46,580 nt of DNA from positions 1 through 46,580 of the IMG/VR virus record IMGVR_UViG_3300005537_000034; one strand, written 5' to 3'. The notes under the pieces are model-generated. The model was given only the letters and a program-made list of their open reading frames with translations, was not told the origin of the DNA and did no database searches. Position 1 is the first letter of the stretch; every line of letters starts with the position of its first letter. Made by a program: the position numbers and the translations under genes. The stretch comes from a virus. Below, one piece after another: positions 2,958 through 42,771 of the stretch.

Positions 2958-3416
2958 ATGAAATCACTCTGTATCGGTCTACTAATTCTTACACTCGCGG
3001 CACCTGTATCGGCCGAGACAAACCCTTTGGCCTGGAAATCCAATCAGCAGGTAGCCGATTGGTTGTCTACGGGAGGAGTCGCGGCCTCTATCGGCCTCGA
3101 TACACTCCACAACTGGAACGACCCTCATCGCGGAGAGGCATTGAAGTGTGAAGCCTTCCGACTAGGAATGACTGTGGGCATTGCGGAATTGACCAAAGCC
3201 TTTGTGCATCGCACGCGCCCCGATGGTAGCGACAATAAGTCATTCTTCAGTGAGCATACGGCGCTTGCGGCAGCATCGGCCACTGGGTGGAAGCTGGGGA
3301 TTGGGTTCACCATCGGCGTCGGGTATGGCCGCATGGCCGCGAACAAGCACTATGGCACCGATGTGTTAGTCGGAGCCGGTGTCGGCGCACTATCTCATTT
3401 GCTCTCGTGTAACTAA
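2958..3416 (+). CDS. Exported PAP2-family phosphatase
   Basis: A 152-residue protein with an N-terminal Sec signal peptide (LCIGLLILTLAAPVSA, residues 4-19). All three PAP2 acid-phosphatase motifs are present: K80-x6-R87P88, then SEH at 98-100 (variant of SGH, His100 catalytic), then R125-x5-H131-x3-D135. The family removes phosphate from lipids such as undecaprenyl pyrophosphate or phosphatidic acid, or from soluble esters, outside the cytoplasmic membrane. The start has a strong AAAGGAG site. A structured leader lies just upstream. A periplasmic lipid phosphatase in a phage early region is unusual and could alter the envelope. The substrate cannot be told from sequence. Confidence 0.8.
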   Translation: MKSLCIGLLILTLAAPVSAETNPLAWKSNQQVADWLSTGGVAASIGLDTLHNWNDPHRGEALKCEAFRLGMTVGIAELTKAFVHRTRPDGSDNKSFFSEHTALAAASATGWKLGIGFTIGVGYGRMAANKHYGTDVLVGAGVGALSHLLSCN

Positions 3417-6089: not shown

Positions 6090-6461
6090 ATGAGTAACGA
6101 AGGCTACTACACACAGACGATTGAAGGCGACGTGGAACTGTGCGATAATCCTGACTGCGCGCTGTGCGGAGAACCCTCGCCACATGGAGAGTATCAGGCC
6201 GATAGGTCCGATGCGGTGGCGGCGGTGCCGCACGGCGGCTACGCCAGCGACGGCGAGTATTATTTCGCGGTGCCCGCAGAGCGGAGGCGCACGTATTTCA
6301 TCACGGCCACAGTGCAACTCGTGGTCGAGGATGAGTGTGTATCCTTCGCATTGATTGAAGTGAAGGATAGACTCAACTCCCTGATTGCCGATGGCCCGCT
6401 GCGGAATGACCCCCTGAATGGGGCAACCATCGAAGACATCCAAGATATCACAAGCCGATGA
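6090..6461 (+). CDS. Hypothetical protein with possible zinc site
   Basis: A 123-residue protein. Two ATGs lie in tandem; the second (6090) is better spaced from GGAGG at 6081-6085. An early cysteine cluster C-x4-C-x2-C (CDNPDCALC) may bind metal. The second half is strand-rich (YFITATVQLVVEDECVSFALIEV) and acidic. The stop overlaps the start of the polymerase gene (ATGA at 6458-6461), so the two are translationally coupled. No family recognised. Confidence 0.55.
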   Translation: MSNEGYYTQTIEGDVELCDNPDCALCGEPSPHGEYQADRSDAVAAVPHGGYASDGEYYFAVPAERRRTYFITATVQLVVEDECVSFALIEVKDRLNSLIADGPLRNDPLNGATIEDIQDITSR

Positions 6462-9100
6462 GATGTAGAGGCGTAGGACCGGCCCCCTGTGAGTGGATGG
6501 TCGTCGCAGAGGGGCCGGGGCCGGAAGAGGATAGAAAGGGGATTCCTCTCGTTGGTAAAACGGGCAAAGAGTTTGATAGATATTTCAATGGCGATAGGCT
6601 CCCTGAGCGTCGGGAGATATTCGTCACCAATCTCTACCGCCAATATGGGGGGAAGAACTATGAGTGGACCGCTGAAGACTTGGAGCGAGACAGTCTTCTA
6701 CTCCTCGATGAGTTTCGGCGGGTGTGCCCTCGTCTCGTTATTACTATGGGTCGTCACTCAACACGATACTTTCTTGGCGATGTCAGTATGGATGATGTGC
6801 ATGGGCTACCTTGGACTATTGATTTTCATGGTCGCGGGATAACCGTTTTCCCCCTCTACCACATTGCCGCAGGCTTCCATAACCCCGAGATATCCGGCTA
6901 CGTCAGCTACGACTTCCAACAACTCGAAGCCTACTTCGATGGGAAGCTGACGGCGAGGAGACTTTACGATGACCCGTTCAAGGAGCCGAGCTACACGGAA
7001 ATCACGGAACTATCCCAGATTATCATTGACCCATCAAAGCCGATTGCTATCGACACCGAGGGTTATCCAAGAGCCCCTTGGAGTCTTCAGTTTTCACAGG
7101 ATGCTGGCCGAGCATCCATCATTCGAGGTAATCGTTCCTCCCTGGTGGTCAGGCGATTTGGAGAGCTACTTAGACAATCTGGAGCACGAATCGTCTATCA
7201 CAATTCTCTACACGATTTAACCACGATGCGGGCGATGGGGATTGAGACCGCAGACCTCCCCTTCGATGATACGATGGTGGCGGCCTATTTGCTCCAAGTA
7301 GAACCCAAGGGCCTTAAACCCCTCTGCATACGCCACTGTAACATGAAAATGGACTCCTATGAGGACATCATGGGAGACGCACAGAATAGACTCGCGTATG
7401 ACTACTTCGTGAGCCTCTGGGACATAGAACAGGATGATTATGAGCAACGACAACAAGCCGAATTTATACGCCTCACTACAACAGCTTATGTCAACTCCAG
7501 AGGGAAGACAGTTACTGGTAGACGCCTTAAAGTGTTACCAAAAATCAGCCGTTCCATATTACACAAGGCAGTCGAACGAGGAATGCGCTCCCGAGAGCCC
7601 TACAAACTGTGGCAAAAGTGGGAAGACGACGCCCTCCCCATCAGAGTCGCGGCCTACACACGACTCGGAGATATGCCTGAAGCTACGCTTGACCATGTGC
7701 CAATCGAACGAGCCATACATTACGGAGGAAGAGATTCAGACGGCACTGGACGACTTGCTCCTGAACTTTCAGGACGAATTGATGTCTTGGGGCTTAGAGG
7801 GGTCTATGAGTTGGAGCTATCAACCTATCCCCTCATCGACCGAATGCACACAGTCGGCATCAAACCAGACCTCCCACATTTCGCTCGATTATCCGCGAAG
7901 CTGGGGACCGAAGTAGAAGGGCTACAGGCGAAACTTGAAACAGAAACGGGCCTCGAAGGCTTCAATGCCAACTCCGGTGACCAGGTTGCCGATTACGTCT
8001 TCGACCGACTTGGACTGGAGGGTTATAAGCGCACAGAGTCTGGACGCTTCTCGACCAACGATAAGGTCCTCGAAGCCTTGGAGCATGAGCATCCTGAGTA
8101 TCCTGTCATCTCGACTATTCGTGAGTATCGTGAGGTCTACAAGCTTAAACACACGTTTGTGGACCGTATTCCAGACTTCGCCCGCCGATGGCCTTACGAC
8201 GGTCGTGTTCACGCTACGTTTAGGACCACGAGGGTGGTCACTGGGCGATTGGCGGCTAGTGACCCGAATCTATTGGCACAGCCGAAGCACGGGAAGTTTG
8301 CCAAGGAATTTCGTAGAGGGTGGGTAGCGGATGAGGGGCATCTGCTGGGTGAGTGGGATGAGAGCCAAGGTGAGCTACGTGTGCTGGCACATCTTAGCCA
8401 GGACCCTCTTATGCTTGCTGTCTTTCGTGGCGAGCGTCGTAATCCTGATGGCTCTCTCATTGACCTTCATGCAGCTTTGGCTGAGAGGATATTTGGCGTC
8501 AAGCCTAGCCAGCAGGACAAAAGCAAACACCGGCTCCCCTCAAAAGCCGTGAACTTTGGTCTCCCAATGGGGATGACGAATAAAGGATTAACCCTTGAAC
8601 TACGGAAGAATGGCGTAGACATCAGCGAAGATGACGCCCAACGATGGATTGATGAGACCGACGCGCTCTACGTGGGGGTTCCACGATATAAAGCCCGTAT
8701 GGTCGCGGAGGCGAAGCGGAATGGATACATTCGGTGCCTTAGTGGTCGCATTCGTTATATTGGGGGCATTAAGTCTTGGGATGCGGCGATACGGGCCGAG
8801 GCTGAACGATTCGCGTTTTCCACCCCCATCCAAGAGGGACTCACATGGCTCGTGAAGCAGGCGGAAGTGTCCATTTGGAAGGAAATCATTGGCCCCTATG
8901 GGCGACAAGGCCGCTACGTGCAGCCGATTCTTCAGGTGCATGATTCGATAAACCTCGAATTTGAGGATGACCCGAAACTGGCACAGGACCTGAATAGACA
9001 CATGCGGGAGATACTGAGCCGCATCCCAGAGGGCTTCACGGTGCCAATGGATAGTAGTGGGGAGTATGGGCCGAATATGGCCGATATGAAGGAGTTTTGA
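6458..9100 (+). CDS. Family A DNA polymerase with N-terminal uracil-DNA-glycosylase-like domain
   Basis: An 880-residue replicative polymerase. Residues ~10-165 resemble family 4-type uracil-DNA glycosylase (AEGPGPEEDRKG...PLVGKTG, TNLYRQYGG, FPLYHIAAGF). The 3'-5' exonuclease shows Exo I D199-T-E201, Exo II H248-N-S-L-H-D253 and Exo III Y422-GGR-D426. The polymerase motifs are A (D634-ESQG-E639-LR), B (R692-x3-K696-x3-F700-x3-M704) and C (H828-D829-S830). Compared with E. coli Pol I, positions I709, Y766 and E883 become Gly, Met and Ser. The Exo II-III gap is about 95 residues longer than in Klenow. No 5'-3' nuclease domain. UDG-like/PolA fusions are known from SPO1-type phages. Confidence 0.9.
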   Translation: MRCRGVGPAPCEWMVVAEGPGPEEDRKGIPLVGKTGKEFDRYFNGDRLPERREIFVTNLYRQYGGKNYEWTAEDLERDSLLLLDEFRRVCPRLVITMGRHSTRYFLGDVSMDDVHGLPWTIDFHGRGITVFPLYHIAAGFHNPEISGYVSYDFQQLEAYFDGKLTARRLYDDPFKEPSYTEITELSQIIIDPSKPIAIDTEGYPRAPWSLQFSQDAGRASIIRGNRSSLVVRRFGELLRQSGARIVYHNSLHDLTTMRAMGIETADLPFDDTMVAAYLLQVEPKGLKPLCIRHCNMKMDSYEDIMGDAQNRLAYDYFVSLWDIEQDDYEQRQQAEFIRLTTTAYVNSRGKTVTGRRLKVLPKISRSILHKAVERGMRSREPYKLWQKWEDDALPIRVAAYTRLGDMPEATLDHVPIERAIHYGGRDSDGTGRLAPELSGRIDVLGLRGVYELELSTYPLIDRMHTVGIKPDLPHFARLSAKLGTEVEGLQAKLETETGLEGFNANSGDQVADYVFDRLGLEGYKRTESGRFSTNDKVLEALEHEHPEYPVISTIREYREVYKLKHTFVDRIPDFARRWPYDGRVHATFRTTRVVTGRLAASDPNLLAQPKHGKFAKEFRRGWVADEGHLLGEWDESQGELRVLAHLSQDPLMLAVFRGERRNPDGSLIDLHAALAERIFGVKPSQQDKSKHRLPSKAVNFGLPMGMTNKGLTLELRKNGVDISEDDAQRWIDETDALYVGVPRYKARMVAEAKRNGYIRCLSGRIRYIGGIKSWDAAIRAEAERFAFSTPIQEGLTWLVKQAEVSIWKEIIGPYGRQGRYVQPILQVHDSINLEFEDDPKLAQDLNRHMREILSRIPEGFTVPMDSSGEYGPNMADMKEF

Positions 9101-15558: not shown

Positions 15559-16890
15559 CTATTTCAGGAGCCCCATACACTCAAGGGCTTCAAAGCGGCG
15601 TTGTGGGTTGCTAGGGTAATCGCGTTTACCGTGGTCACAGTCAGCAAGGTCTGTGCGGTAGCCGATGTCGGGATACCATATCTTCTGATGCTTGAGGGTG
15701 TCGAGGCAGTTGCGGCTCGCATCCTGAATGGTATAGTCGTGAACGCTATAAACTCCCACGTCCTGACTGTAGCCACTGAGGAGGTAGTTGTCGCCCTCGC
15801 AGTAGAGGTCATAGGGGTAGTAGCCATGACAGACTTTCTCGTCTATTAGAATGGGCCATCCGATACGCGGATGCTCAATGTAGAGATTGATAGAAGCGCC
15901 GAAGCCTTTGCGGAATTGGTCTGGGGAGACTTTCCCATCAATCCAATTGTCAATAATCTCTCCAAATGGCTGCATCGCAATCGTGTGGAAGAAGTTGGGA
16001 TGCGCGGAGTAGCCAAACCGATTACAATTCTCTAAGAACCAGACTTCCTGGTCGCCGCAGATGACGTTGACATCCACGAAGCCTGTATACTTTGCCGCCT
16101 TATAGGGCTTCAGGACCTTTGCAACCGTCCGCTGAATCCCCTCGCAGTTGATGTCTACCTTGAAGATGATATCCTGTGAGCAGCCGCAATGTTCTCCGAG
16201 GTCCCAATTCAGGAGCCTCTTGCTCTCCAGTCCGCATGTCGCCAACCACGGCTCTCCGTTGTTGAGCCATAGCTCGAAGTTCACTTCTACCCCCTTCTTG
16301 CGCTCCTGAAGGATGAAGCCCTTAGTCGTCGGCTCACTGAAGTTTTCGAGGAAGACTTGTAGCGCCTTATTCGCCTGCTCATCGTCTTCATGCTGCGGCA
16401 CGAAGGTCATGTAGTTCAAGTTGGAGTCATTCGGCTTGAACACATAGGCGCAATCCTCGTGCGCTTGGATGTATTTTAGCCCCTCCTGCACCGTCTTACA
16501 CTCTATCATGTCGGGGATGCCGAGGCCACCCTCTTTGGCCGCTTCAATCGCTGCCGCCCTATCATGTTCCATCGTGTGGCTTAGCGCCGATGCGCCAAAC
16601 ACACGACAGCCAGCCTCTCGGAGCGTCTCACTGACATCAGAGAGGTGATTAGAATCAAAGACCCAAGTAGCATCATCATTGGCATACCTCTTCAGGGCGA
16701 CATTGATAGGGAGCTTCTCTACGAGACCGCTCCCATTCAACATGAATCGCTCTTTCTCATGCTTATCAGAACCCTCAGCCTCAAAGGGTTTGTAAGCATA
16801 GATTACTTCATAGCCCTCTTCCATGAGCCGCTTCGCCCATCCCAGCCCAGAGTAGTCTTCCCCGGCAATAATATACGGTCTGTGCTTCAT
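15559..16890 (-). CDS. ATP-grasp ligase related to PurD
   Basis: A 443-residue protein. The N-terminus is a Rossmann-like domain (YIIAGEDYSGLGWAKRLMEEGYEVIYAY). The central ATP-grasp has CAYVFKPNDSN (phosphate-binding lysine strand), GFILQERKKGVEVNFELWLN (metal/nucleotide Glu), CGLESKRLLNWDLGEHCG, and YTGFVDVNVI ... VWFLENCNRFGY. The last two blocks match the ESKR and E-N-R-FG core of glycinamide ribonucleotide synthetase (PurD). Such enzymes join a carboxylate to an amine using ATP. The C-terminal ~120 residues are unlike PurD. The first base overlaps the protease stop (TAATG). A role in purine supply, in modifying DNA or in peptide ligation is open. Confidence 0.75.
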   Translation of the reverse strand: MKHRPYIIAGEDYSGLGWAKRLMEEGYEVIYAYKPFEAEGSDKHEKERFMLNGSGLVEKLPINVALKRYANDDATWVFDSNHLSDVSETLREAGCRVFGASALSHTMEHDRAAAIEAAKEGGLGIPDMIECKTVQEGLKYIQAHEDCAYVFKPNDSNLNYMTFVPQHEDDEQANKALQVFLENFSEPTTKGFILQERKKGVEVNFELWLNNGEPWLATCGLESKRLLNWDLGEHCGCSQDIIFKVDINCEGIQRTVAKVLKPYKAAKYTGFVDVNVICGDQEVWFLENCNRFGYSAHPNFFHTIAMQPFGEIIDNWIDGKVSPDQFRKGFGASINLYIEHPRIGWPILIDEKVCHGYYPYDLYCEGDNYLLSGYSQDVGVYSVHDYTIQDASRNCLDTLKHQKIWYPDIGYRTDLADCDHGKRDYPSNPQRRFEALECMGLLK

Positions 16891-17501
16891 TAGGTCCCCA
16901 GGAGGAAGGCTTTGATAATCAGGAGATTCACAGAGTAGGAGGTATTCTTGACAGACCGCTGATTGATGGAGACGAGGAAGCCCTCTTCATCGACCACAGG
17001 ACCGCCACTCATCCCCTCAATAGACGCGCCCTGGGAGAAGTAGCCTGGCGGCATCTCGTCGGTGGCCTGGTAGTCGAGGAGGAAGGGGATTTCCTTAATG
17101 ACGGTCAACTGTGACCAGCCCCACGCATAGCCGATTGCGGTGAGTGGCTCAAAGCGTTCGACGGGATAGCCACGAAAGACGAGTGCAGGCTTATTGAGGT
17201 CTACCTCTAGGAGGGCGAGGTCCGCGACTTCATCCTTCTTGAGGACTTTCACAGGCTTCCCATCTGCGGTCATTTGGTCACCAAGACAGTGGGCGGCCGT
17301 CAAGACCCTGTGGATACCGATGACTTCCCCGGTGCAGGAATATTCTGCCGTCTGCGGATCCACCCATGTCAAGACCTGAGCATAGCCCGTAATCCTCACA
17401 ACGGAGGCTTCTACGCGGTCTACCATCCTCGTGTAGACGGTCTGATGTCCGTGGATTAGAACAGAGAATGCAAGAACGATTGCATGGAAGAGAGTAAGCA
17501 C
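16890..17501 (-). CDS. Exported trypsin-like serine protease
   Basis: A 203-residue protein. It has an N-terminal hydrophobic segment (LTLFHAIVLAFSVLIHG) that reads as a signal peptide or anchor. The complete chymotrypsin-fold triad is visible: His71 in TAAHC, Asp94 in ADLALLEV, Ser165 in GMSGGP. Single Cys57 (SCTG) could pair with Cys72. DegP-like PDZ domains are absent. It lies after the ejection-protein genes and directly before the ATP-grasp gene. It could process virion proteins, act in the periplasm in superinfection or lysis, or degrade host surface proteins. Confidence 0.8.
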   Translation of the reverse strand: MLTLFHAIVLAFSVLIHGHQTVYTRMVDRVEASVVRITGYAQVLTWVDPQTAEYSCTGEVIGIHRVLTAAHCLGDQMTADGKPVKVLKKDEVADLALLEVDLNKPALVFRGYPVERFEPLTAIGYAWGWSQLTVIKEIPFLLDYQATDEMPPGYFSQGASIEGMSGGPVVDEEGFLVSINQRSVKNTSYSVNLLIIKAFLLGT

Positions 17502-25159: not shown

Positions 25160-27052
25160 TTAGGCAATCTGAAGAATCGAGCCTTCGATATTATACACGA
25201 CACTCGTGAAGGTGCCTGCCGTATAGATAGTAATCGTAGAAGCCCCAAGCGCATGGATATGGAACGCGAATCCGTGATAGGCACCAACGCCAGTGGTGTC
25301 AGTGATATTGACGACCAATGTGGAGGCGAAGTTGAAGGGCTGTGTCTGCACGACGCCGATTTCATCCGTATACTGCACGCCGACTTGGAAATTATGAGAG
25401 ACAGACGTGACAACTCGCACATAGGCCGTGACGAGAAAGGCTCCATCAACGGCACCAACCGTGTAGGAGACGACAGACGCGAGAGCGGTGGTCTGCCCCG
25501 TGAGCCGATTGAACCCATAGATGGCCGGAACCCCACCAGCCGCCGTGGGGATATTATTATACTTTAGGATTTTCGTGCCGAGCCGTACGGCTCCCGCTGT
25601 AGGAGCCACCGCAATCGAGGTCGTGTGGGTGCCATTGATAGCGACAGATGTCGTGGAATTGGAGTCGTCACTTATCGTCGTGGTATTGATATTGGTGAAC
25701 GGAAATGCGAGCCCCACGTCCCAGGTGCCGAGGCTACCGAGAACTATCCCAACCGCACTCGTGGCTCCAGTCGCCGTGACCCAGATGCCCATCGTATTCG
25801 GAATCTGCCCCGCCACATAGGCATCAGGTGTGGATGTGTTATTGTTGCTACGAACCTCTATACCATTATTGGTGCTCGCGGTCGTGTCGCGGATACCCTC
25901 AAAATAGCCTCCGACACCGCGTCCGACGCCGCCGCTAAAGATATGTCCAGTCCCCTGAAGTCCACACGCATCGGGATTTGTGCCCCCCGAGGCTGGACTT
26001 GTCGCATAGGAATAGGCCGCGCCTACGATGGCCGCCGACTGCACTTGTGTGAGAGGCCGCCCAACCGCGACTACGAAGATACCTGCATTCTGGTCATTGG
26101 ATTGACCATTCGTCATCTGCGTGAGCGGTATCGACTCCACACGATTGATTTTCATCGTGGGACCCACGGTCGCAACCGGATTCGCGTAGGTGCCTGTCAT
26201 CAGCTCTAGGCGGAAGGGGTTTGAGGCATTCGCAGGCGCACCAAGACCTGTCTCATCACCGACCCCAATCTGGAGCTTCTCTCTCGTGGGGTCGTAGAAG
26301 AAGTTCACGCCATCTTGAATGAGGGGGCCGCCTGCTGCCGTGAAAATCACGGACCCTGTAGGAGCCCCAAGAATCGCTAGCGAGGCACCACCACTCCCAC
26401 CACCAGCCCCCGGCACACCCTCCTCATAGATAGTACCTCGTGTTTTCCCTTGCACCCAATCCATATAACTCGACTTCGAGAGGAAGAAGCGGAGGTCGCT
26501 GAGCCGCTGAGCATACTTGATGCCCGAGTCCTGTGCGAGCTTGACCTTCTCTAGCTTAAGATATTCGTCCTCAAGCGCCCCGTGGACGAGGATGTCGTGG
26601 AAGGATTCTGGAAACTGTGGCTCCATCGTGCCGCTGAGATTCGTGGCATTCTGTAACACATCCGCATAGAGGATAAACGGCACCGCAGGCACACAATCCA
26701 TCTCGACGGTCACGGAGTTCCACGCGACTCCCACAATACAATAGTAGCTCACGAAGGTGTTAGGCGACGGCTGCGTGGCCCTCAACTCCTCGACACTGAT
26801 TTCCTTGAGAATACGATAGGGGTTGACCGAGCGGTCAACAATGTTGACAATCTTCTCCCCCGGAAACGTCACCTGGGGATTGCCCACGGTCACAGCCACA
26901 TTCACGGTTGTTCTGCGGCTCAGGTTAATCCCGAGAGCCGACGTGACCCGTTTATAGCGGTCATTGACGGTGTTCCCAATTCGGACCAGGGAATCAGGCG
27001 ACGTGAGATTCAGTCGCCCCTGGACGGCTCGCGTGATATCAGCAAACGTCAT
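25160..27052 (-). CDS. Head-to-tail adaptor fused to a fibre-like C-terminal domain
   Basis: A 630-residue protein. Residues 1-~210 match the podovirus adaptor/gp4-like type: DITRAVQGRLNL, an early helix-rich part, then SFHDILVHGALEDEYLKLEKVKLAQ and a terminal helix. Residues ~225-630 are Gly/Thr/Val-rich beta sequence with VNFFYDPTREKLQIGVG, a phrase typical of fibre or spike proteins. Adaptors are normally only ~150-250 residues, so this is a fusion. It lies between the tail hub and the surface protein block. Confidence 0.65.
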   Translation of the reverse strand: MTFADITRAVQGRLNLTSPDSLVRIGNTVNDRYKRVTSALGINLSRRTTVNVAVTVGNPQVTFPGEKIVNIVDRSVNPYRILKEISVEELRATQPSPNTFVSYYCIVGVAWNSVTVEMDCVPAVPFILYADVLQNATNLSGTMEPQFPESFHDILVHGALEDEYLKLEKVKLAQDSGIKYAQRLSDLRFFLSKSSYMDWVQGKTRGTIYEEGVPGAGGGSGGASLAILGAPTGSVIFTAAGGPLIQDGVNFFYDPTREKLQIGVGDETGLGAPANASNPFRLELMTGTYANPVATVGPTMKINRVESIPLTQMTNGQSNDQNAGIFVVAVGRPLTQVQSAAIVGAAYSYATSPASGGTNPDACGLQGTGHIFSGGVGRGVGGYFEGIRDTTASTNNGIEVRSNNNTSTPDAYVAGQIPNTMGIWVTATGATSAVGIVLGSLGTWDVGLAFPFTNINTTTISDDSNSTTSVAINGTHTTSIAVAPTAGAVRLGTKILKYNNIPTAAGGVPAIYGFNRLTGQTTALASVVSYTVGAVDGAFLVTAYVRVVTSVSHNFQVGVQYTDEIGVVQTQPFNFASTLVVNITDTTGVGAYHGFAFHIHALGASTITIYTAGTFTSVVYNIEGSILQIA

Positions 27053-27331: not shown

Positions 27332-30151
27332 TTAACACTCGCATTTCGAGACAATCAGGTCGAGGTCTACATCGGGCACGAGGTCGATGCGGTCATTATT
27401 GACGGTAAAGATATCGCAACTCGTGGCGATGATAAAGGGTGAGACGATGGTTTCATTCGGATTAAACGCCGTGCTGTAGTCGCCCCGGAGGAAGAGGGCA
27501 TACACCGTGGTTGGCGGATTGGGCCACTCCAGCATGTGGAAGGGCACGACACTACTGGTCGGTAGTGTCTTCGCAGGCTGCACATGCGTGCGGAGGTCTT
27601 GTGGATAGGTCCGACGCGGCGGATTCGTCCACTCAATCTGGTTAAACGGCACCCCGCTAATTTGGCTGTAGTAGATAGACGTTCTGAGGTCTAGCGCGTA
27701 GAGCTTCGTGAGCGGATTCGGCCACTCGGTCTGATGGAATGGCACGGTCCCCATAATACCGATACTGGTTAGAGCCGCCTGGGTCCAGGTTCTGAGACTC
27801 GGTGAATACGGCCCAGGTGTCGGATTATTCCAATCAAGCTGGAAGAAGGGATTCGGCAGGAATACCGAGAGTGCCAGTGCCTGCTGGACTCCAGTTCTCA
27901 GGTCGAACGGATACGGTTTCTGACTCGGATTATTCCACTCAATCGGAATGAAGGGGGCAATCGTCCCCAACACGTAGTAGCTAGCGAGCGTGTGGAGATT
28001 CCGAGGATACGTGGCGAGTCGTGGGAGTGACCAGTCCACGTTCTGGAACGGCACCACCGTCGTATTCGTGAGGCTCAGCGACGGATTGAGCCACTCTCTC
28101 AGCGAATGGTCATAGCGTTTGGCAACGGGGTTCGGCCAATCAAACGCCGTAAATGGCGTCGTGATGAACTGCGCGAATGACTTCTGGATGAAGGAGGTCA
28201 CATCCAGCGGAGTAACCCGAGTAACCGGCAGCGGCCAGTTGGTCTGATTAAACGGCTGTGTGCCAGCTACGCCTCGACTGGTTAGGGCCGCTTGCACCCA
28301 TGTGCGGAGGCTTTCAGAGTAGGGCGCAGGGAACGGATTGAGCCATGTCGTCTGAAAGAATGGATTCGGGAGAATAACGCTAAGGGCGAGGGCCTGCTGC
28401 ACACTCGTGCGTAGGTCCTGTGGGTAGCTACGGGCGGTCGGATTAGGCCACTCGACAGGGAGAAACGGAACCGAGAAGTCGTTGACGTAGTAACCGAGGA
28501 ATGTGCGGAGACTTATCGGATACGGGGTCGTCTGCGGAAGCGCCCAGTCAAGCACCTGGAATGGCGCAACGATATTATTGTAGAACGTGAGCGCAGGGTT
28601 CGTGCCTGTTCTCAGGGAGGCATCGTAGCTACGAGGCGTCGGATTCGGCCAGTCGAGGAGCGCGAATGGGGTCGTCGCAAACGGGATAAAGGTTGACTGG
28701 AGGAATGAGACAACATCGAGCGGAGTCTTTTTCCAGACCGGGTTGGGCCACTCCGTCTGACTAAACGGCAGCACATTCCCTGTAGAAATACTCTGCTGCA
28801 GCCACACGCGGAGGTCGCTAGGATATGTCCGACCCTGCGGCGGGTCCCAGGATTGGTGGGTGTAGAAGGGCTGAGGTCCTGTGACGCCGCTGAGCAGACT
28901 ATAGCGCGGCTGTGCAAGGGTGCGAAGGTCGTTATCCCACCGTGGGAGCACCGGAAGCGGCCACTCTACGGTCGAGAAGGGAGCCGTGTTATCGACAATG
29001 AAGTAGCCAATGAAGGTCCGTAGATTCGTATCATACGGCTTTGGCGTCGGCAAATCCCATTGCATCGGCGTAAACGGACTTGGGCTCCGGAGGGTGCTCT
29101 CCAGTCCATTCCAGAGTGAGGTTCTCAGGTCCTGTGGATACGTTCTCCAAACAGGGTTCGGCCAATCAAATGTTGGACTGCCGAGTGAGAGCAGATTTGC
29201 GGCGGCATAATTCTGCCCGCCAGGGTTGATAAACGTGCGGAGGTCGAGTTGATAGCCTCTGGGAATCGGATTCGGGTAGTCGTAACTTGGCCCCTGACCT
29301 TGAGCCCCAAAAAAGGTATCCTTTCCAATGAGCTTCGCCCGCATCGGGTCGAGCGAGGTGCGGAGGTCACTAGGGTAGAGCGCACCTCGTGGATTCTCAA
29401 TCGCGGTGGGAAAGAGCGGCATCACCACCGCTGTCGCGGCCTTGAGCGAGAGCGTAATCGTTGCGGCTGAAGTGGTCGAAGGCGTCCCGGTCCACGAGAA
29501 GGAGGGCGTATAGGTTGAGACGCCCACGGCTACCTGGTCCGCGACCCAGAGACGACCAAGAGAGCCTACACCGTCTTTATTCGTTCCACCCCCGTTGTCT
29601 CTATCCGTCCATGCGCCTCCAAAGGTGCCGCCCGCTGGAGATGCGACGTTCGAGGCGGACTCATAGACCGCAATGACCACATCGTTCGTGACGGTTGTGG
29701 TGATGGCGGCACAGGTAATCGGGGAGGGATTGGAGCCTGTGACGGAGGACCCATTGGTGGCATCGAGTGGAGAAGTCGCAATGTGCGAATATTCTAAGCA
29801 CTCAATAATGAGTCGATGGTTTGAGTCATTGCTAACCGTTACCGTGACGGTATTCGCAACATTTGACCGGATGCCGTGGGCGACAAAGGCAAAGAGGGTG
29901 TCGCCAGCACCACCGGCTACACCGTCATCAAATGGCCCCGCTGCACTAGTATAGGTATTGCCCGCAGAGTCTGTAACCGAGTAGTTCGAGCCTGTCTTTC
30001 CTGCGGTGCTGTTGCTTCCCCATCGGACAATAACAACGATAGCATGGTCGCCGTCGCCGCCCGTGTCATTATTCGACCCGAACGTGGCTGTGACAGTATT
30101 GGTGCCAGAGCTATTACCGGGAATAGACTGAATAAAGGCCGGGACGGACAT
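27332..30151 (-). CDS. Giant surface protein with 19 tandem W-P-N-P/DLRT units
   Basis: A 939-residue protein. Residues 1-~240 are a beta-sandwich-like domain (AIVVIVRWGSNS, TVTVTVSNDSNHRLIIECLEY, AATITLSL). From ~245 to ~905, I count 19 units of 31-40 residues, each with W-x-x-P near the start, then Y-P-x-D-L-R-T, then an aliphatic/Gln-rich segment ending in PF. Units 7-11 and units 12-16 repeat as blocks of exactly 171 residues. The end (SCDIFTVNNDRIDLVPDVDLD) differs. AAGGA precedes the ATG. I do not recognise the family. Placement among tail genes suggests a virion surface or adhesin role. Confidence 0.7.
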   Translation of the reverse strand: MSVPAFIQSIPGNSSGTNTVTATFGSNNDTGGDGDHAIVVIVRWGSNSTAGKTGSNYSVTDSAGNTYTSAAGPFDDGVAGGAGDTLFAFVAHGIRSNVANTVTVTVSNDSNHRLIIECLEYSHIATSPLDATNGSSVTGSNPSPITCAAITTTVTNDVVIAVYESASNVASPAGGTFGGAWTDRDNGGGTNKDGVGSLGRLWVADQVAVGVSTYTPSFSWTGTPSTTSAATITLSLKAATAVVMPLFPTAIENPRGALYPSDLRTSLDPMRAKLIGKDTFFGAQGQGPSYDYPNPIPRGYQLDLRTFINPGGQNYAAANLLSLGSPTFDWPNPVWRTYPQDLRTSLWNGLESTLRSPSPFTPMQWDLPTPKPYDTNLRTFIGYFIVDNTAPFSTVEWPLPVLPRWDNDLRTLAQPRYSLLSGVTGPQPFYTHQSWDPPQGRTYPSDLRVWLQQSISTGNVLPFSQTEWPNPVWKKTPLDVVSFLQSTFIPFATTPFALLDWPNPTPRSYDASLRTGTNPALTFYNNIVAPFQVLDWALPQTTPYPISLRTFLGYYVNDFSVPFLPVEWPNPTARSYPQDLRTSVQQALALSVILPNPFFQTTWLNPFPAPYSESLRTWVQAALTSRGVAGTQPFNQTNWPLPVTRVTPLDVTSFIQKSFAQFITTPFTAFDWPNPVAKRYDHSLREWLNPSLSLTNTTVVPFQNVDWSLPRLATYPRNLHTLASYYVLGTIAPFIPIEWNNPSQKPYPFDLRTGVQQALALSVFLPNPFFQLDWNNPTPGPYSPSLRTWTQAALTSIGIMGTVPFHQTEWPNPLTKLYALDLRTSIYYSQISGVPFNQIEWTNPPRRTYPQDLRTHVQPAKTLPTSSVVPFHMLEWPNPPTTVYALFLRGDYSTAFNPNETIVSPFIIATSCDIFTVNNDRIDLVPDVDLDLIVSKCEC
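27430..29425 (-). repeat. Tandem protein repeat array with a five-unit super-period
   Basis: Codons for the unit-opening Trp lie at 28750, 28237 and 27724, giving two successive super-repeats of exactly 513 bp (28238-28750 and 27725-28237), each of five units. Within them, matching units share phrases: LDVVSFLQ / LDVTSFIQ, TTPFALLD / TTPFTAFD, QQALALSVILPNPFFQ / QQALALSVFLPNPFFQ. The block before them (units 2-6) is 528 bp. The pattern points to growth by duplication of a five-unit segment, followed by divergence at nucleotide level. Confidence 0.75.
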
Positions 30152-30157
30152 GAATCC

Positions 30158-31618
30158 TTACCAGAGATAGAGAACGGCATCAGCGGTGAATCCACCTGGC
30201 GGCGTAAAGCTCTGCGTCGAGGAGCCTCCAATTTGAAAGCCTGCGGGCTGTGTGAGAATCCGAACCCCATCAAACCACTCCACATTGAAATTCTTCGTGG
30301 GGGCGGCTGAGAGGTCTACCGTGAAGGTGCCCCCGGTCGGGGCATAGACGAGATACTCCACACCATTATTGGCGAGGGCAAATCCGGTGCTAGAGAGTGC
30401 GGGCTGCGGCGTCATATTGAGGAGGCCCACTCGGATTCCATAGGCAACCGCTTGACCGATATTATCTCGAAAATTATCCCAGCGGGTGTCTGGTCCGCTA
30501 CAGACGCCATTGACGGGGCTCACGCAGAGGTTTCGACTCTGAGAAGCCCAGTTGATGAGATACGGGTCCATGAAGACCACATTATGCCCATTCATGACGT
30601 TTTCCCAGAGATACTGTCGATTCACCTGGGCGCTGTCGAGCCACATGCCGAAATACGAGTGGTCGGAGTCGTTAATGTTTGGCTTACACGCGGGCGTGCC
30701 GGTGCCACAATTCGTGGTGCCTGGGAACTTCGCTACGAGCGCAATAACATCCGCATTCGTGTTCTGTAATGCGCTATCATTCCCCGGAACCTGCGTGGTT
30801 GGTAGGAACACTGGGTGCTTGAGCGGCTTCCCTGCCTCATACGAGTGGATGAGGTTAATCATATGCCCCGACCAAAATGTGGAGGATGCGGTCGGTGCCT
30901 CTTCAGACACTTCCCAAATCACATTCTGGAGGTCATTGAGGGTATCAATCACTTTTTGGACATAGGCATCTTGGACGGCTGTGATGGCATTAGCCGAGGT
31001 CATCGTCATCGAACTGAGCGCATTATCGTCCGCAATCCCATTGACGTTATTGCCTGAAGAGAAGGGATACCCGTCCCCGGCCCCACGATTATTGATGAGC
31101 CCAAGTCCATCAAAGAGTTCCACAATGGCGTAGATATGGCTCTGCTGAAGCTGGAGGGCGCGAGCGCGGAGTCGGTCGAAATAGGACTGATTGAATTGCG
31201 TGAAGTCGAACCTGAGGAGACCATCAGACGCATTCCCTGGCCCGAGGCGCTGCCACGGGAAGGGGGTCATCGTCCATGTGCCGCCTGGACCCCAGTTGAA
31301 ATAGGTCGGCAAATCCTTGTGCCAGAGGATGGTGCAATTCTGATTATGGGAGAGGATGAAGTTCACAAAGTTCGTGAAATTCATTGGCGCAGGCGAAGCA
31401 CTCATGTCTGTGTCTTGCTCCACGTTCCATGAGTGGCTTCCCGCGAGTAGCACCGACCGACCTTGTGGATTCACAAAGTAGTGGTAGTTCGTCGCACTGG
31501 CGACGAGCGGCCCCATTGTCGGAGGCGCAGGAGGAGGAGGACGATAGATGAATTGGGCACTGGCAGGGGTCAGACAGACCCCCACCAATGCCAACACAAC
31601 CAGGAGGCGTTTAGCCAT
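30158..31618 (-). CDS. Exported glycoside hydrolase, DUF4038/putative collagen-binding type
   Basis: A 486-residue protein with a Sec signal peptide (RLLVVLALVGVCLTPASA), then AQFIYRPPPP. The body follows the DUF4038 TIM-barrel layout: SVLLAGSHSWN near residue 55, FVNFILSHNQNC, FDRLRARALQLQQSHIYAIVELF, DLQNVIWEVSEEAP (candidate acid/base Glu), and GHNVVFMDPYL. The C-terminal ~80 residues (FALANNGVEYLVYAPTGGTFTVDLS) match the putative collagen-binding domain usually paired with DUF4038. These act on plant or bacterial polysaccharides. A signal peptide on a gene in the tail module is odd: the product would leave the cell. Confidence 0.7.
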   Translation of the reverse strand: MAKRLLVVLALVGVCLTPASAQFIYRPPPPAPPTMGPLVASATNYHYFVNPQGRSVLLAGSHSWNVEQDTDMSASPAPMNFTNFVNFILSHNQNCTILWHKDLPTYFNWGPGGTWTMTPFPWQRLGPGNASDGLLRFDFTQFNQSYFDRLRARALQLQQSHIYAIVELFDGLGLINNRGAGDGYPFSSGNNVNGIADDNALSSMTMTSANAITAVQDAYVQKVIDTLNDLQNVIWEVSEEAPTASSTFWSGHMINLIHSYEAGKPLKHPVFLPTTQVPGNDSALQNTNADVIALVAKFPGTTNCGTGTPACKPNINDSDHSYFGMWLDSAQVNRQYLWENVMNGHNVVFMDPYLINWASQSRNLCVSPVNGVCSGPDTRWDNFRDNIGQAVAYGIRVGLLNMTPQPALSSTGFALANNGVEYLVYAPTGGTFTVDLSAAPTKNFNVEWFDGVRILTQPAGFQIGGSSTQSFTPPGGFTADAVLYLW

Positions 31619-31626
31619 GAGTGCGA

Positions 31627-32124
31627 TTAGAGCGGCTCATAGACGATGTGCGAGCCCACCAGACCGCCGCCCGTGGTAATGGCGCTAAGACTGATTTCGC
31701 CCGTGTTCACCGCGTTGCCCCTCACGATGGGTTCCTGACCGGGAGGGAAGTTGAGACGCACAATCCCGCCGAAGGGATTGAAGCTCATGTTGTGGAGATG
31801 CAGCGACGAAGACCGCTGCGGCTTCGTGGTCGCCGTGTCAAACGACGCAGGAGCCGCTGCGAGGGCCGCCGTGTCGGGGTCTAGCGAGCTATCGTTGGCC
31901 GCCGCCGACAAACTCAGGGTCGCACCCACGGTGGAGTCGCGGCCGAGAATCATGAAGGTCGGCGCAGACGAGCTAGACTGCCCACCGAGGTAAACCTCGT
32001 GAACAATCAGTCTCTGGGAGGCCGTTCCACCCTGGAGACCCATGAACTGCGAGTTGACCATGTTGGTGGTATCAGCAACCGCTGTCGCCGTCCACGAAGT
32101 CACCGAAAAGATACGATTTGCCAT
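31627..32124 (-). CDS. Small virion protein, possible decoration protein
   Basis: A 165-residue Ser/Ala/Thr-rich beta protein starting ANRIFSVTSWTATAVADTTN. The layout (VTSW..., LIVHEVYLGGQSSSSAPTFMIL, SFNPFGGIVRLNFPPGQEP, GSHIVYEPL) is of a compact beta-sandwich. CAGGAGA lies before the ATG. Similar small proteins occur in metagenomic phages and may decorate the capsid or tail; no activity suggested. Confidence 0.5.
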   Translation of the reverse strand: MANRIFSVTSWTATAVADTTNMVNSQFMGLQGGTASQRLIVHEVYLGGQSSSSAPTFMILGRDSTVGATLSLSAAANDSSLDPDTAALAAAPASFDTATTKPQRSSSLHLHNMSFNPFGGIVRLNFPPGQEPIVRGNAVNTGEISLSAITTGGGLVGSHIVYEPL

Positions 32125-32145: not shown

Positions 32146-32472
32146 CTACGGTTTGAGGGTGAGCGAGTCGAGTCGGTCGAGTTCATCGAGCATTTTCACA
32201 TAGGGCCTACACTCCACGTTGCAGGGAAAGGTATCACACGTATACGCATCGCATTTGGCGCAGTAATCGTGGGCTCGCACCCGCCCAGGATTAAACACGA
32301 TGGTGCGCTGACAGTGTGGGCAGGTGCTAATATCGGCTTCAAAGACGGCTCCTTCGCCCACGGGAATCGCACCAGGGGACGCCTGCACGTCGGCCTTCGT
32401 GACACCGGGGCTGAGCCGGTGGTCGATGATGAAGTAGCCTAGGCCGCTGAGAAGTTTTGAAAGTTTTGCCAT
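32146..32472 (-). CDS. Zinc-ribbon hypothetical protein
   Basis: A 108-residue protein. The ATG at 32472 follows AAAGGAGACTTCT, which is better than the longer frame start at 32505. The basic N-terminus (AKLSKLLSGLGYF) precedes CPHC (about residue 51) and CAKC, with two further Cys (CDTF-PC, NVEC), making a double zinc-binding arrangement. Acidic C-terminus. Role unknown; it lies between two virion genes. Confidence 0.6.
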   Translation of the reverse strand: MAKLSKLLSGLGYFIIDHRLSPGVTKADVQASPGAIPVGEGAVFEADISTCPHCQRTIVFNPGRVRAHDYCAKCDAYTCDTFPCNVECRPYVKMLDELDRLDSLTLKP

Positions 32473-32483
32473 AGAAGTCTCCT

Positions 32484-34559
32484 TTACATCAATGTGCCAA
32501 AACAAATAGGTTGCATCGGTGTAACGATTACGGTATTTCCAAGACCGAGGTAGGCCATAAACACATCATGACGCCAGCGTCCGTCGCGTGAATCGGTGCC
32601 GAGGGTCGCATCGTAATTGGTGTGGAAGAGGACCCAGCGCCCATCGGGGCTGATATTCAGAACCGGCTGATTGAGAAAGAAGGCCCCCGTGTCGGTCTGT
32701 GGTTGTTGGTCTACGAGGGAGCGGTGGTGGCAGATACGTCTCCATGCGGTTGTCGGGAGCGGCGTCGTGTCAATGCGGATAATCTCACTATCGCCAGCTC
32801 TCCACGGAGTGGTATTCGGCGTGGTGCTCGTGTAGGTATAGGGCGGCTGACTATTCGCGTCGTTATAGCGGTAGTTAGAACTGGTGAACACATAGGGCTG
32901 ACCAGGCACCGCATCATTAGGCGAAGCGTGGTCCGCGATGTAGACCTCCTGCACGGGCCATTGAGGCGTCATCACATTACGGAGCGTGCCATTCACAGCC
33001 GTGAGTTGCCGATAGACATATTGCAGCCCATCATACGTGCCCGAGAAGGTGTCCTGGTTTACGCACTCCCCGTTTGCCCCGGTCTCCATGTGGCCTCCAG
33101 CACTCGTCTGAAAGCCGGTAATCGTATTGGTCTGCGTGTCCCAGACATACTCAGGGAATTGGGCGTTATCGGCCAGGGCGGGTGTAATGAGCACCCAGCG
33201 GCCTGTGAGGTCGAGGGAGAGGCTATGAACGTGAAGCCCTGTGACCCCAGACTTGTTCTGCAACTCTGGGCGAGTAAGAGTGTTAATGACGATAGAATTG
33301 GAGGGCGTTACGAGGTCATAGAGGAGGGCGAAGAAATGATGGTCCTGCCCGGTGCCCCCACAGAGGACGATGAGCTTCGTCTGCTGGCACATGATGGTGT
33401 TGAGGAAGGTATCTCCTGTCGGAAAGGTTCCTGGGCCAAGGATGCCATTGATAACGGTCGCCGCATCGAAAAGGGTGATATTAACCTGAGCATTGATATT
33501 GGTTACGTCTACCCGACCTACAGTATGATGATTGACGGCAGATGTCAGAGAGCCGTAGAGGTAGTTTGGGTTAATGGCGCAGTCGAAGGAGAGGTCGTTG
33601 TAGAGACCAATCTGCGACCCCCATTGCCAGGTGAGGGTGGTCGGATTGAAGGAGGCGGCATAGAAGGAGCCATCCGTGCGCTGCACGTAGAACTTCTTCG
33701 AGTCTGAAGACCAGCCGTGTTGAGAGCCGGTAGCATTGACGTTCCACGACTGATTAAGACCAGCCTGGATAGTATTGCCATCAGTTATTCTTGCAATCCA
33801 TGTGCCAAAAGCCGGGTCATTATAGGTAAAGCCTTCTGGCCCGAGTGCCACCGCTGTGGGCTTCGTGCGGACAAGCCTATCGGTAATGGTGCTTGTCTGC
33901 AAGATGGCGACGTGAGTCGGTGCAATCGTGAAGGTGACGCCTGCAAACGAAGTCGGCGCTGTCGTCGTGACCGAGGGAAATATGGATGAGGGCGGCGTAA
34001 TTACGGTATTATCGACCCATGCCGAGGCCGTTCCACTATTACCATTCGTGAAGGACGATGCTAATGTGACATTATTCCCAGCAGTCGGCACCGAAGTCGT
34101 GTTCCAGATGAACATGCCGAGCGCACAACGGTCGGTCAGGGAGTTTGATGTGAGAATGAAAGTTTGACCGTTCGAGACAAGCCCCGACTGCGTGTTATCG
34201 AAATTCCCCTGGAGCGCATTATAGGCCGAAAGCGCCGAGGAGAAGATGTCTGTCGCGGCTGAAGTCGTAATCGTGATAGTATCGGTGCCTGTTGCGGGCG
34301 CGACGAAGAGGTAGAGATAAAAGTTATGGTAGGGAGGCCCATTCCCCGTAAACTTGAGCACCTGTGAGGGATTCACACCCGCGCATGTGACACTCGTTAC
34401 GAGGTCACTGTCAGAGCCAATACGCACAAAGACAGCCACGATGCGATTATTATTCGCACCAACTGTAATCGTGTAGCTAAGCGATGTCGCGGCCAGGACG
34501 GAAGAACTATTCGAGTTCTCCCATACGGGGTCGAGACGCCCGCCTTGTGGGTCGCTCAT
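32484..34559 (-). CDS. Beta-sandwich plus beta-propeller surface protein
   Basis: A 691-residue protein without signal peptide. Residues 1-~225 form a beta-sandwich of the same kind as the N-terminus of the 19-unit repeat protein (SLSYTITVGANNNRIVAVFVRIGSDS...DTITITTSAA). The rest is propeller-like, with blades containing WSSDSKKFYV, LSLDLTGRWVLITP and ISPDGRWVLFHT, which are WD40/PD40-like signatures. Histidines in NHHTVG, QDHHFF, HVHS and GGHME recall the metal-binding face of oligogalacturonide lyases. A carbohydrate-active tail protein is possible. The start overlaps the previous stop (TAATG). Confidence 0.55.
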   Translation of the reverse strand: MSDPQGGRLDPVWENSNSSSVLAATSLSYTITVGANNNRIVAVFVRIGSDSDLVTSVTCAGVNPSQVLKFTGNGPPYHNFYLYLFVAPATGTDTITITTSAATDIFSSALSAYNALQGNFDNTQSGLVSNGQTFILTSNSLTDRCALGMFIWNTTSVPTAGNNVTLASSFTNGNSGTASAWVDNTVITPPSSIFPSVTTTAPTSFAGVTFTIAPTHVAILQTSTITDRLVRTKPTAVALGPEGFTYNDPAFGTWIARITDGNTIQAGLNQSWNVNATGSQHGWSSDSKKFYVQRTDGSFYAASFNPTTLTWQWGSQIGLYNDLSFDCAINPNYLYGSLTSAVNHHTVGRVDVTNINAQVNITLFDAATVINGILGPGTFPTGDTFLNTIMCQQTKLIVLCGGTGQDHHFFALLYDLVTPSNSIVINTLTRPELQNKSGVTGLHVHSLSLDLTGRWVLITPALADNAQFPEYVWDTQTNTITGFQTSAGGHMETGANGECVNQDTFSGTYDGLQYVYRQLTAVNGTLRNVMTPQWPVQEVYIADHASPNDAVPGQPYVFTSSNYRYNDANSQPPYTYTSTTPNTTPWRAGDSEIIRIDTTPLPTTAWRRICHHRSLVDQQPQTDTGAFFLNQPVLNISPDGRWVLFHTNYDATLGTDSRDGRWRHDVFMAYLGLGNTVIVTPMQPICFGTLM

Positions 34560-36040
34560 TAGGGAGTTCCTACGTGATAGACATGCACGAGTGGACGGTT
34601 CTGGTCTAGCTCATCGCAGACAAGATAGACGAGGCGAGTTGCGGCATCCCAGGAGGCTCCGCAGCCAAGATTATTCCCATCCCCGTCTCCTGGAACCCCT
34701 AGTGACCATCCGGTGTAGGGCACCACATCATAGGGATTCTTCGTGCCATTCTTCACGGCGATGAGGTCATTGACATCGAAGGCCCACACAAACTCTGTCG
34801 AGGGCCACGCGAAGTCGCCGCCTGATTCAGTGCAATTAGCTAGGTCGGGGTCATAGGCATACGGATGGCCTGCATACGCCGAGTCGAAGCACGGAGCACT
34901 ACCGCAGTCTGTTCCGGTTACGGGGAAGGTATTTTGGGTGCAGGGTTTGTAATGGTAAGCTCCAATCGACTTGGCCCCAAACACCAGCACCGACCGGGTG
35001 TTATCGGCAAAGAGGATGCCCGAGGATGTGGTTTGGCCTGCCGCATTATCCACAAAGGGAATGGTGTTAATCGCAGGCGTATTGAGCGGCGAGTGCGCGT
35101 TTGTAAAGGTAATCGTTGGGACGTTCCCGCCCACGGTGCAATTGCCACCACCATTCGGCCAGGTGCCGGTGCCGTTCACCAGGACACAGTTCTGTGTCGG
35201 GTCATTGCTATTCCAAGCCCCCAGATTACTGTGGCTAATATCGTAGTAGACGAGGGGGACGGCGGTAATATTCGTAGACGTAGACGGCTGCGTAGCAAGC
35301 GTATCGCCGTCGAGGGCAAAGAGGGATGGCCCAATAGGCCCGCAACTGACAATGCTCCCAGCCATTGCCCCAGAAATGAGTGAGCCGCCGAGGGCCGCCC
35401 GATACGCCGTTGGAATCACGGTCAAATACTGGCCCGCGAGACGCGGCGTGTGGGGAATGCCTGGAAACGTGTAGCCGCCTGTTTGACTCCCAAACGTCAG
35501 ATTTCCGACCCACGCGAGCTGGCTCTGCACACAGTTCGCATCATACCCAATCCACTCGGTGCCAATCAACTTGCCATTATAGACGACGCTACTCCCGAGC
35601 CCGTTACCTCCCGCCGTCATAATGATAGCCGCTTTGCCTCCACTGGCATCCGTAAACCCTTGCACATGGGTGCCGAAGTTGAGCCCCCCGGTTCCAACCA
35701 CCCGAGGGTCAAGGAGCGCGGGAATCACAATCTGCGCCATGCTCGATTGATTCGAGACGCGGAAGGCGGCAAGGTCACCCTTAATGAAGAGGGACTTCCC
35801 ATTGATAGGGTCATTGTAGACGACACCGCCGACCCACCCAGCCGCAAAGGTGGAAGAGTCGTTGAGGGAGCCGTAGTTCCCGGCTGGGAGTCGAAAGGCT
35901 CCGACATAGGTGAAGTCTGACGAGTGGAGAAGATTCGGGCCTCCACCCTGCACCACAGGAGGGCGATTGATAAACTGCGCCCGAGGAGCGGTGTAGCATA
36001 TCCCAAGACCCAATACGAGAGTAATGAGTAGACGCTTCAT
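34559..36040 (-). CDS. Exported cysteine-containing beta-propeller-like protein
   Basis: A 493-residue protein with a Sec signal peptide ([18 protein letters not shown]) followed by AQFINRPP, the same post-signal phrase as in the glycoside hydrolase gene. The mature part begins [13 protein letters not shown] and has repeated strands ([48 protein letters not shown]). About a dozen cysteines, several paired in sequence (CTVGG, CTQN, CGSAPC), suggest disulfides in an oxidising compartment. The start overlaps the upstream gene stop (ATGA). Function unknown; secreted or surface-bound. Confidence 0.55.
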
Positions 36041-42255: not shown

Positions 42256-42771
42256 CTAAACGCTAGAAACGTCTAGCTGCGGGGGTTCTGCCGTCATATA
42301 GCCAGGAAGAAAAACCATCACACTAGGTAGTCCCTTAAAGGCTTCCAAAATCTCAACCCTTTTGGCGAACCATTCATGGTTGATATGAAACCTAAAAAAC
42401 TGTTGATGAAGGGTTTTCTCTAGGGGTCGTCCACCCGGAGCGACCGCTATTAGCTCTAGTGGGGAACTATGAGCCGTATTGAGTGTTGTTATACGTTGGT
42501 CTACATTGGTCGAAAACCCAATCTTGTAACAAGGGGATGGGGTTCGTCCCTCAATCAAATAGACTAACGAAAGTCCATTAGACTGGTAGTATTTTACTAC
42601 CGACCTAATAGGCGATTGCTCTCGTGCTCTCTTTTCGGCCTTACGAGCCGCCACTTCGACAATCCCACGTCTTCGGTTATTGATGCAGTTACGGCACCAA
42701 GCCTTTTGTGGGGCGTTGGGGTAGAAACTTTCGTCATCCCCATTAAGCTTGCAACAAGTGCAATATTTCAT
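42256..42771 (-). CDS. Free-standing GIY-YIG-superfamily nuclease (T5orf172/Mug113-like) with zinc finger
   Basis: A 171-residue protein. The N-terminus has a zinc-finger-like CTCCKL ... FYPN ... WCRNC (residues 4-29), like HNH/homing-associated fingers. Residues 68-135 match the T5orf172/Mug113 domain: SLVYLIE (70-74, 'GIY' strand), YKIGFS (82-87, 'YIG' strand), R93 (catalytic Arg), LEKTLHQQFF with Glu118 (metal) and NHEWF. These enzymes nick or cut DNA and spread as homing endonucleases. It sits alone between scaffold and capsid genes, a known hot spot for such insertions. Confidence 0.75.
   Translation of the reverse strand: MKYCTCCKLNGDDESFYPNAPQKAWCRNCINNRRRGIVEVAARKAEKRAREQSPIRSVVKYYQSNGLSLVYLIEGRTPSPCYKIGFSTNVDQRITTLNTAHSSPLELIAVAPGGRPLEKTLHQQFFRFHINHEWFAKRVEILEAFKGLPSVMVFLPGYMTAEPPQLDVSSV

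Follow-up and report, generated by a model that had tools for sequence, protein, structure and literature searches.

A W-x-x-P repeat protein and two conserved small partner genes in uncultured phages: a putative multivalent virion component

Tape measure proteins of siphophages contain 11-residue tandem units, whose repeated W and F residues have been proposed as anchors for small auxiliary proteins (PMC3271669). The protein described here is like those repeats (PMC3271669) in several respects: it is a structural-region protein with many tandem units, regular W/F anchors, multi-unit duplication and small partners. Nevertheless, its units have 30-42 residues with WPNP and LRTW and no confident helix, and the arrays occur in apparently different phage kinds, fused to baseplate-type, Hc3, Gly-rich and beta-sandwich domains. 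Therefore, we rejected membership of the tape measure family on unit length, composition and context, and we kept the comparison as a working analogy.

The protein is encoded in IMG/VR virus record IMGVR_UViG_3300005537_000034, which was analysed over its whole 46,580 bases (the window). Regarding other described families, in the related locus L037 an array is followed by a head-closure Hc3 domain of the P22 gp10-like type (phrog_578); this family is only a fusion partner, and the array itself has no phrog_578 match. In L007 the array is the C-terminal extension of a baseplate wedge or tail-protein-I-type protein (phrog_26379, phrog_6), next to the fibre-attachment position. However, the array lies outside that family, and the cultured relatives (phiKX1) match the N-terminal part only; in Komagataeibacter phage phiKX1, the relative of this baseplate-type domain is encoded immediately behind Baseplate J. 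Finally, a Gly_rich_2 domain (PF21722) is fused N-terminal to the array in L002, a place that is taken by a beta-sandwich-like domain in the window protein.

Repeat units, the 171-residue period and its age

The real ORF is on the minus strand, the plus strand having stops throughout 27332-30151. The features of the window that are referred to below are the following:

27332..30151, minus strand: repeat protein gene, 939 aa with an ATG start, 19 units by HMM
29414..30151, minus strand: N-terminal domain (aa 1-246), beta-sandwich-like by inspection, with a suggestive, weak relationship to stand-alone cassette proteins
27437..29413, minus strand: 19-unit array (aa 247-905), from the unit HMM, spacing 30-42 aa
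28238..28750, minus strand: super-repeat block 1, five units (aa 468-638), 513 bp
27725..28237, minus strand: super-repeat block 2, five units (aa 639-809), 513 bp
30158..31618, minus strand: glycoside-hydrolase-like gene (DUF6298, Collagen_bind_2) with a signal-peptide-like N-terminus, between the companion and the repeat gene
31627..32124, minus strand: companion protein, 165 aa, of a family confidently predicted as all-beta, whose relatives adjoin repeat genes at ten motif-found loci
32146..32505, minus strand: Cys-rich zinc-ribbon-like protein, 119 aa, or ~107 aa from an internal ATG, always adjoining the companion

The preliminary description had reported 19 tandem units in a 939-residue protein of the structural or tail region, belonging to an unknown repeat family, and this repeat observation is confirmed: the unit HMM gives 19 units at aa 247-905, and no well-described family claims them in the libraries searched. 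The unit length of 31-40 residues given there agrees with most units (31-38), although the HMM range is wider (30-42). The last 34 residues of the protein are unrelated to the units. The family consensus is W-P-[NV]-P-[RK]-G-x3-P-x-D-L-R-T-W ... P-F-x-Q-x-D, and the conservation of the unit positions across the family is 100% for P, 90% for L, 89% for another P and 86% for W, with a further P and T also near-invariant and linker lengths varying; these figures are partly biased, because the residues of the search pattern were pre-selected. Features that were absent from the first search pattern are nevertheless conserved, namely the PF before W, the second W after LRT and the linker types. There are two recurrent linkers, a short one (PFxQxD) and a longer one (LxLxGQDxFFGxxGxxPxYD), and the window repeat protein has the long type in its first unit: LIGKDTFFGAQGQGPSYD.

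The two adjacent five-unit blocks of exactly 513 bp, or 171 residues, were also found as described. The W-x-x-P spacing is 33+35+32+35+36 = 171 and occurs twice in succession, and the autocorrelation per residue reaches 1.24 at lag 171, compared with at most -0.45 for the best lag in each of 300 shuffles. This lag dominates the scanned range of 10-400, in which the top lags are 171, 342, 238, 273, 340, 67 and 35. Within the five-unit period, units of equal phase are more alike than other units (39% vs 34%, permutation p = 0.003). The 171-residue period continues in weaker copies before and after both blocks.

These lengths bear on a tape measure role, in which the protein would set the length of the tail. 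Known tape measure proteins do have tandem repeats with conserved W and F as auxiliary-protein anchors (PMC3271669), but their described units have 11 residues, whereas here the units are of 30-42 residues and proline-rich, and lag 11 is not in the top 15 autocorrelation lags. Besides, an SU10-type adaptor is present in the window phage, where no gene for a tail tube was recognised, the arrays vary from 2 to ~30 units across relatives, and one of them is fused to a baseplate-type protein, so we consider this role very improbable. The adaptor belongs to the gene at 25160-27052 (minus strand), where it (PF24175, aa 1-187) is fused to a long, fibre-like-looking C-terminal part; judging from this adaptor, the window phage looks podovirus-like.

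Regarding the age of the period, blocks 1 and 2 are 59% identical in protein and 57% identical in DNA. Their differences by codon position are 61/49/109, the third positions being 64% different, and 56 of the 101 residues identical between the blocks have a differing codon. The longest exact DNA match common to both is 13 bp, dN is 0.42 and dS is saturated. Tandem Repeats Finder reported no repeat in the DNA, its longest allowed period (500) being below 513. Both an assembly duplicate and a recent recombination would be near-identical in DNA, so the two are excluded for these blocks, and with them the assembly artefact at the 513-bp period against which the preliminary description had warned. 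That the gene as a whole is an assembly artefact or a chance low-complexity ORF has a negligible probability: the blocks are indeed spaced by exactly 513 bp, but they show 57% DNA identity and saturated synonymous sites, and homologues are found in many independent contigs. By their substitution pattern, the blocks are an old duplication under purifying selection.

The idea that the length of the protein changes today by five-unit recombination was not borne out, because of this DNA identity, the absence of exact matches longer than 13 bp and the relatives L061 and L064, which are 72% identical over ~1,215 residues without any unit-sized indel. L077 and L079 are 87% identical, yet they differ by segments of 74 and 58 residues. 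The length of an array can change but is often stable. The super-periods are unlike among relatives (78 residues, or two units, in L105; 76 and 192 in L005; 35/70 in L071; 38 in L073), and therefore multi-unit duplication has occurred more than once.

The same divergence has to be set against another explanation, a flexible spacer rich in proline that would keep neighbouring proteins or the N-terminal domain at a distance from the particle and whose motifs would be only remnants of duplication. The composition of the repeat protein (Pro 13.7%, Thr 10.5%), its low-confidence extended model and the fusion of arrays to different domains are what a spacer could look like. However, the motifs are strongly conserved between diverged units and across unrelated phages, which is partly biased by the search pattern, and the conserved residues have been kept through synonymous change. 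Both facts argue for specific contacts, and make a mere spacer quite unlikely.

Relatives, partner genes and domain fusions

Pfam, PHROGs and NCBIfam gave no match for the window repeat protein, and the array regions of its relatives stayed below all curated cut-offs. The best hits among PDB sequences (E 0.76 and 0.34) were not meaningful, tblastn of the window protein and of the relatives' arrays against 50,697 phage records found no array match, and single-protein searches of viral contigs and isolate phages retrieved no relatives of the window protein. Regarding the literature searched, no relevant paper was found with the motif strings of the repeat. Degenerate DNA patterns (W-P-N-P ... 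D-L-R-T) did find relatives in ~15 IMG/VR contigs, all of them viral (L002-L010, L031-L033 and L035-L037). Pattern matches in genome contigs were discarded as single hits that appear to be due to chance. Variant arrays retain PFxQxDWPNP and have LRTW replaced, as by QTPFQVG in L083; in L071, NLLxTTLAP is added.

The repeat gene is the last of a three-gene cassette on one strand, in the order Cys-rich gene, 165-aa all-beta gene and W-x-x-P repeat gene. In the window the cassette extends from 32505 to 27332 with one gene inserted, and in several related loci the slot between the companion and the repeat gene is likewise occupied by other genes. At ten motif-found loci, homologues of both partners (35-54% identity) lie upstream of the repeat gene in the same order; apart from them, the only window gene matched in the phage loci of the set was TerL, weakly. 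The Cys-rich proteins have ~100 residues in the family and would bind zinc.

The companion profile alone recovered 80 loci. After clustering of the companions at 80% identity, the Cys-rich gene adjoins the companion in all 39 clusters, and among the 31 clusters with at least 3 kb of downstream sequence a W-x-x-P repeat gene follows in 18, while none of 2,178 other ORFs passes the same test. No downstream repeat gene was detected in the remaining 13 of the 31, several of which carry sub-threshold variant arrays (e.g. L050, L075, L077, L085), so the companion may also act without the repeat protein. The companion gene was not found in the available sequence of the array loci L002 and L007. There was no match to the companion in the cultured phages or plasmids searched, and in a host search of ~800 sampled genomes of two phyla its profile gave one weak hit, rejected as chance, in a frame with an internal stop and with the partner genes absent. 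Thus, as far as these searches reach, the repeat family and the cassette are undescribed in the libraries searched, and no cultured phage matches them.

Other repeat types occur in the slot after the companion. In L048 (6543-8252) a 570-aa ORF just after the companion has a 19-residue period (TISGTxxxAPTVAYAVTT), and in L091 (6511-9498) a 996-aa ORF after the companion shows, by inspection, repeated IPT/TIG-like beta domains.

Regarding the N-termini, a motif MATxxRxPx or MTIRAP is found at the N-terminus of 13 distinct ORFs, all of them downstream of the companion on the same strand. This common but not universal motif is absent from the window repeat protein, which has a beta-sandwich-like domain there, like L033 and L008, whose arrays are also fused to such domains. 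The domain of L033 is a separate gene in L053 and in L050, in the latter directly before the variant repeat gene. Against the stand-alone beta-sandwich family of related cassettes, the window N-terminal domain gave a probability of either 56% or 1%, depending on the set-up, which is a weak likeness. The beta-sandwich that was thought to be common to this N-terminus and the neighbouring propeller protein was not detected (hhalign probability 0.8%). In L058 inspection shows a Gly-rich region ahead of the array. Together, the fusions point to a virion appendage. After their arrays, L009 (5681-6082) and L010 (3583-4000) have a similar Ig-like C-terminal region (QNWSGxGYMAxYEIDTS..., read directly).

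The phages that carry the cassette differ in their terminases (Terminase_3 vs Terminase_6C) and in their capsid families (phrog_29, phrog_21712). L111 has a head-tail adaptor/portal, and L058 has a sheath-like PHROG match, although the Pfam sheath model found none. Since the cassette recurs with different terminases and capsid proteins, it has probably been exchanged between lineages. The fusions and these differences favour a component of the particle that phages of different types would carry.

Predicted structure and a possible docking role

AlphaFold2 was run as a single chain on ten units of the window protein with an 18-row alignment, and gave a mean pLDDT of 43, a pTM of 0.18 and almost no secondary structure. 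In a second job the companion of L031 was joined to two units, two TGA stops being read as Gly as a computational linker, with 46 alignment rows for the companion and one row for the units. The companion was predicted all-beta at a pLDDT of about 90; the two units reached ~50-63, each with a single short helix at LxLRTWLS, and the model did not dock these low-confidence units on the companion with confidence. The solenoid that had been suggested for the units is not supported by a pLDDT of 43 and short helices only, while such values under shallow alignments are no proof of disorder: the low pLDDT of the units may come from the few rows (18 and one) and from the use of single chains. An array of short docking motifs fits these models better than a solenoid.

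The whole L031 model, including its low-confidence tail, was used as the query of a fold search. Against the PDB it had a loose likeness to viral jelly-rolls (TM about 0.3), and against BFVD it matched mostly uncharacterised phage proteins, the best with an E of 1e-7 and a TM of 0.70 on the target.

Tail fibres are usually trimers, and the repeat protein could be a self-assembling fibre or adhesin in which three chains intertwine around a core of W, P and LRT, fold only as an oligomer and need no docking partner. A single-chain prediction would fail for such a trimer, as was observed, and the neighbourhood, with a carbohydrate-active-enzyme-like protein and Gly-rich and beta-sandwich domains, is typical of receptor-binding regions. 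Nevertheless, unit lengths of 30-42 with irregular linkers are unusual for a fixed rise per repeat, and the strict association with two small partners is left unexplained. A fibre is for these reasons doubtful.

We tentatively prefer to see the repeat protein as a multivalent virion appendage or scaffold of a conserved cassette, whose motifs dock a small partner. By analogy, a multivalent anchor chain is what comes closest to this combination of short conserved motifs, variable linkers and a small protein that is strictly co-conserved. The N-terminal domain would attach the repeat protein to the particle. The remainder would be a long proline-rich chain in which variable linkers alternate with 19 short docking motifs (PFxQx[D/E]WPNP...DLRTW). 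On each motif would sit a single subunit of the small partner, for which the 165-residue all-beta protein is the most plausible candidate, and the chain would thus display as many subunits in a row as it has units. The arrays would have grown through old duplications of one to five units. The logic would be the one reported for the anchors of tape measure proteins, although here the chain would be non-helical and would have a role other than that of a tape measure. We infer the virion location, the docking and the identity of the partner, and we propose this specific mechanism with moderate to low confidence.

On a broader scale, and with more reserve, we suggest that a mobile cassette of uncultured phages might use a linear-motif array to recruit many copies of a small all-beta protein into a string-of-beads appendage or scaffold, in phages that belong to different packaging lineages and whose tails also seem to be of different types. 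Phage structural regions are already known to encode repeat proteins, but this repeat family and the three-gene cassette have no match in the libraries searched or in cultured phages. The partners give a testable hypothesis, namely that one unit binds one partner subunit, and profiles would allow many unannotated environmental phage genes to be named as one system.

Other genes of the window

Rfam and tRNA scans of the window gave no matches. In the structural region, the glycoside-hydrolase-like gene (30158-31618, minus strand) and the gene at 34559-36040 (minus strand) have similar signal-peptide-like starts followed by RPP, and this RPP resembles the N-terminal motif of the relatives' repeat proteins. 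In the late region, 16890-17501 (minus strand) encodes a trypsin-like peptidase (PF13365, E 1.5e-11), and the adjoining gene at 15559-16890 (minus strand, 443 aa) has a below-threshold likeness to the phosphoribosylglycinamide synthetase C domain. A MUG113/T5orf172 (GIY-YIG-type) gene at 42256-42771 (minus strand) is an insertion that separates the capsid gene from the late gene following it. On the plus strand, 6458-9100 encodes a family A DNA polymerase with an N-terminal uracil-DNA-glycosylase-superfamily domain and a 3'-5' exonuclease, and 2958-3416 is a PAP2-superfamily phosphatase-like gene with a signal-peptide-like start.
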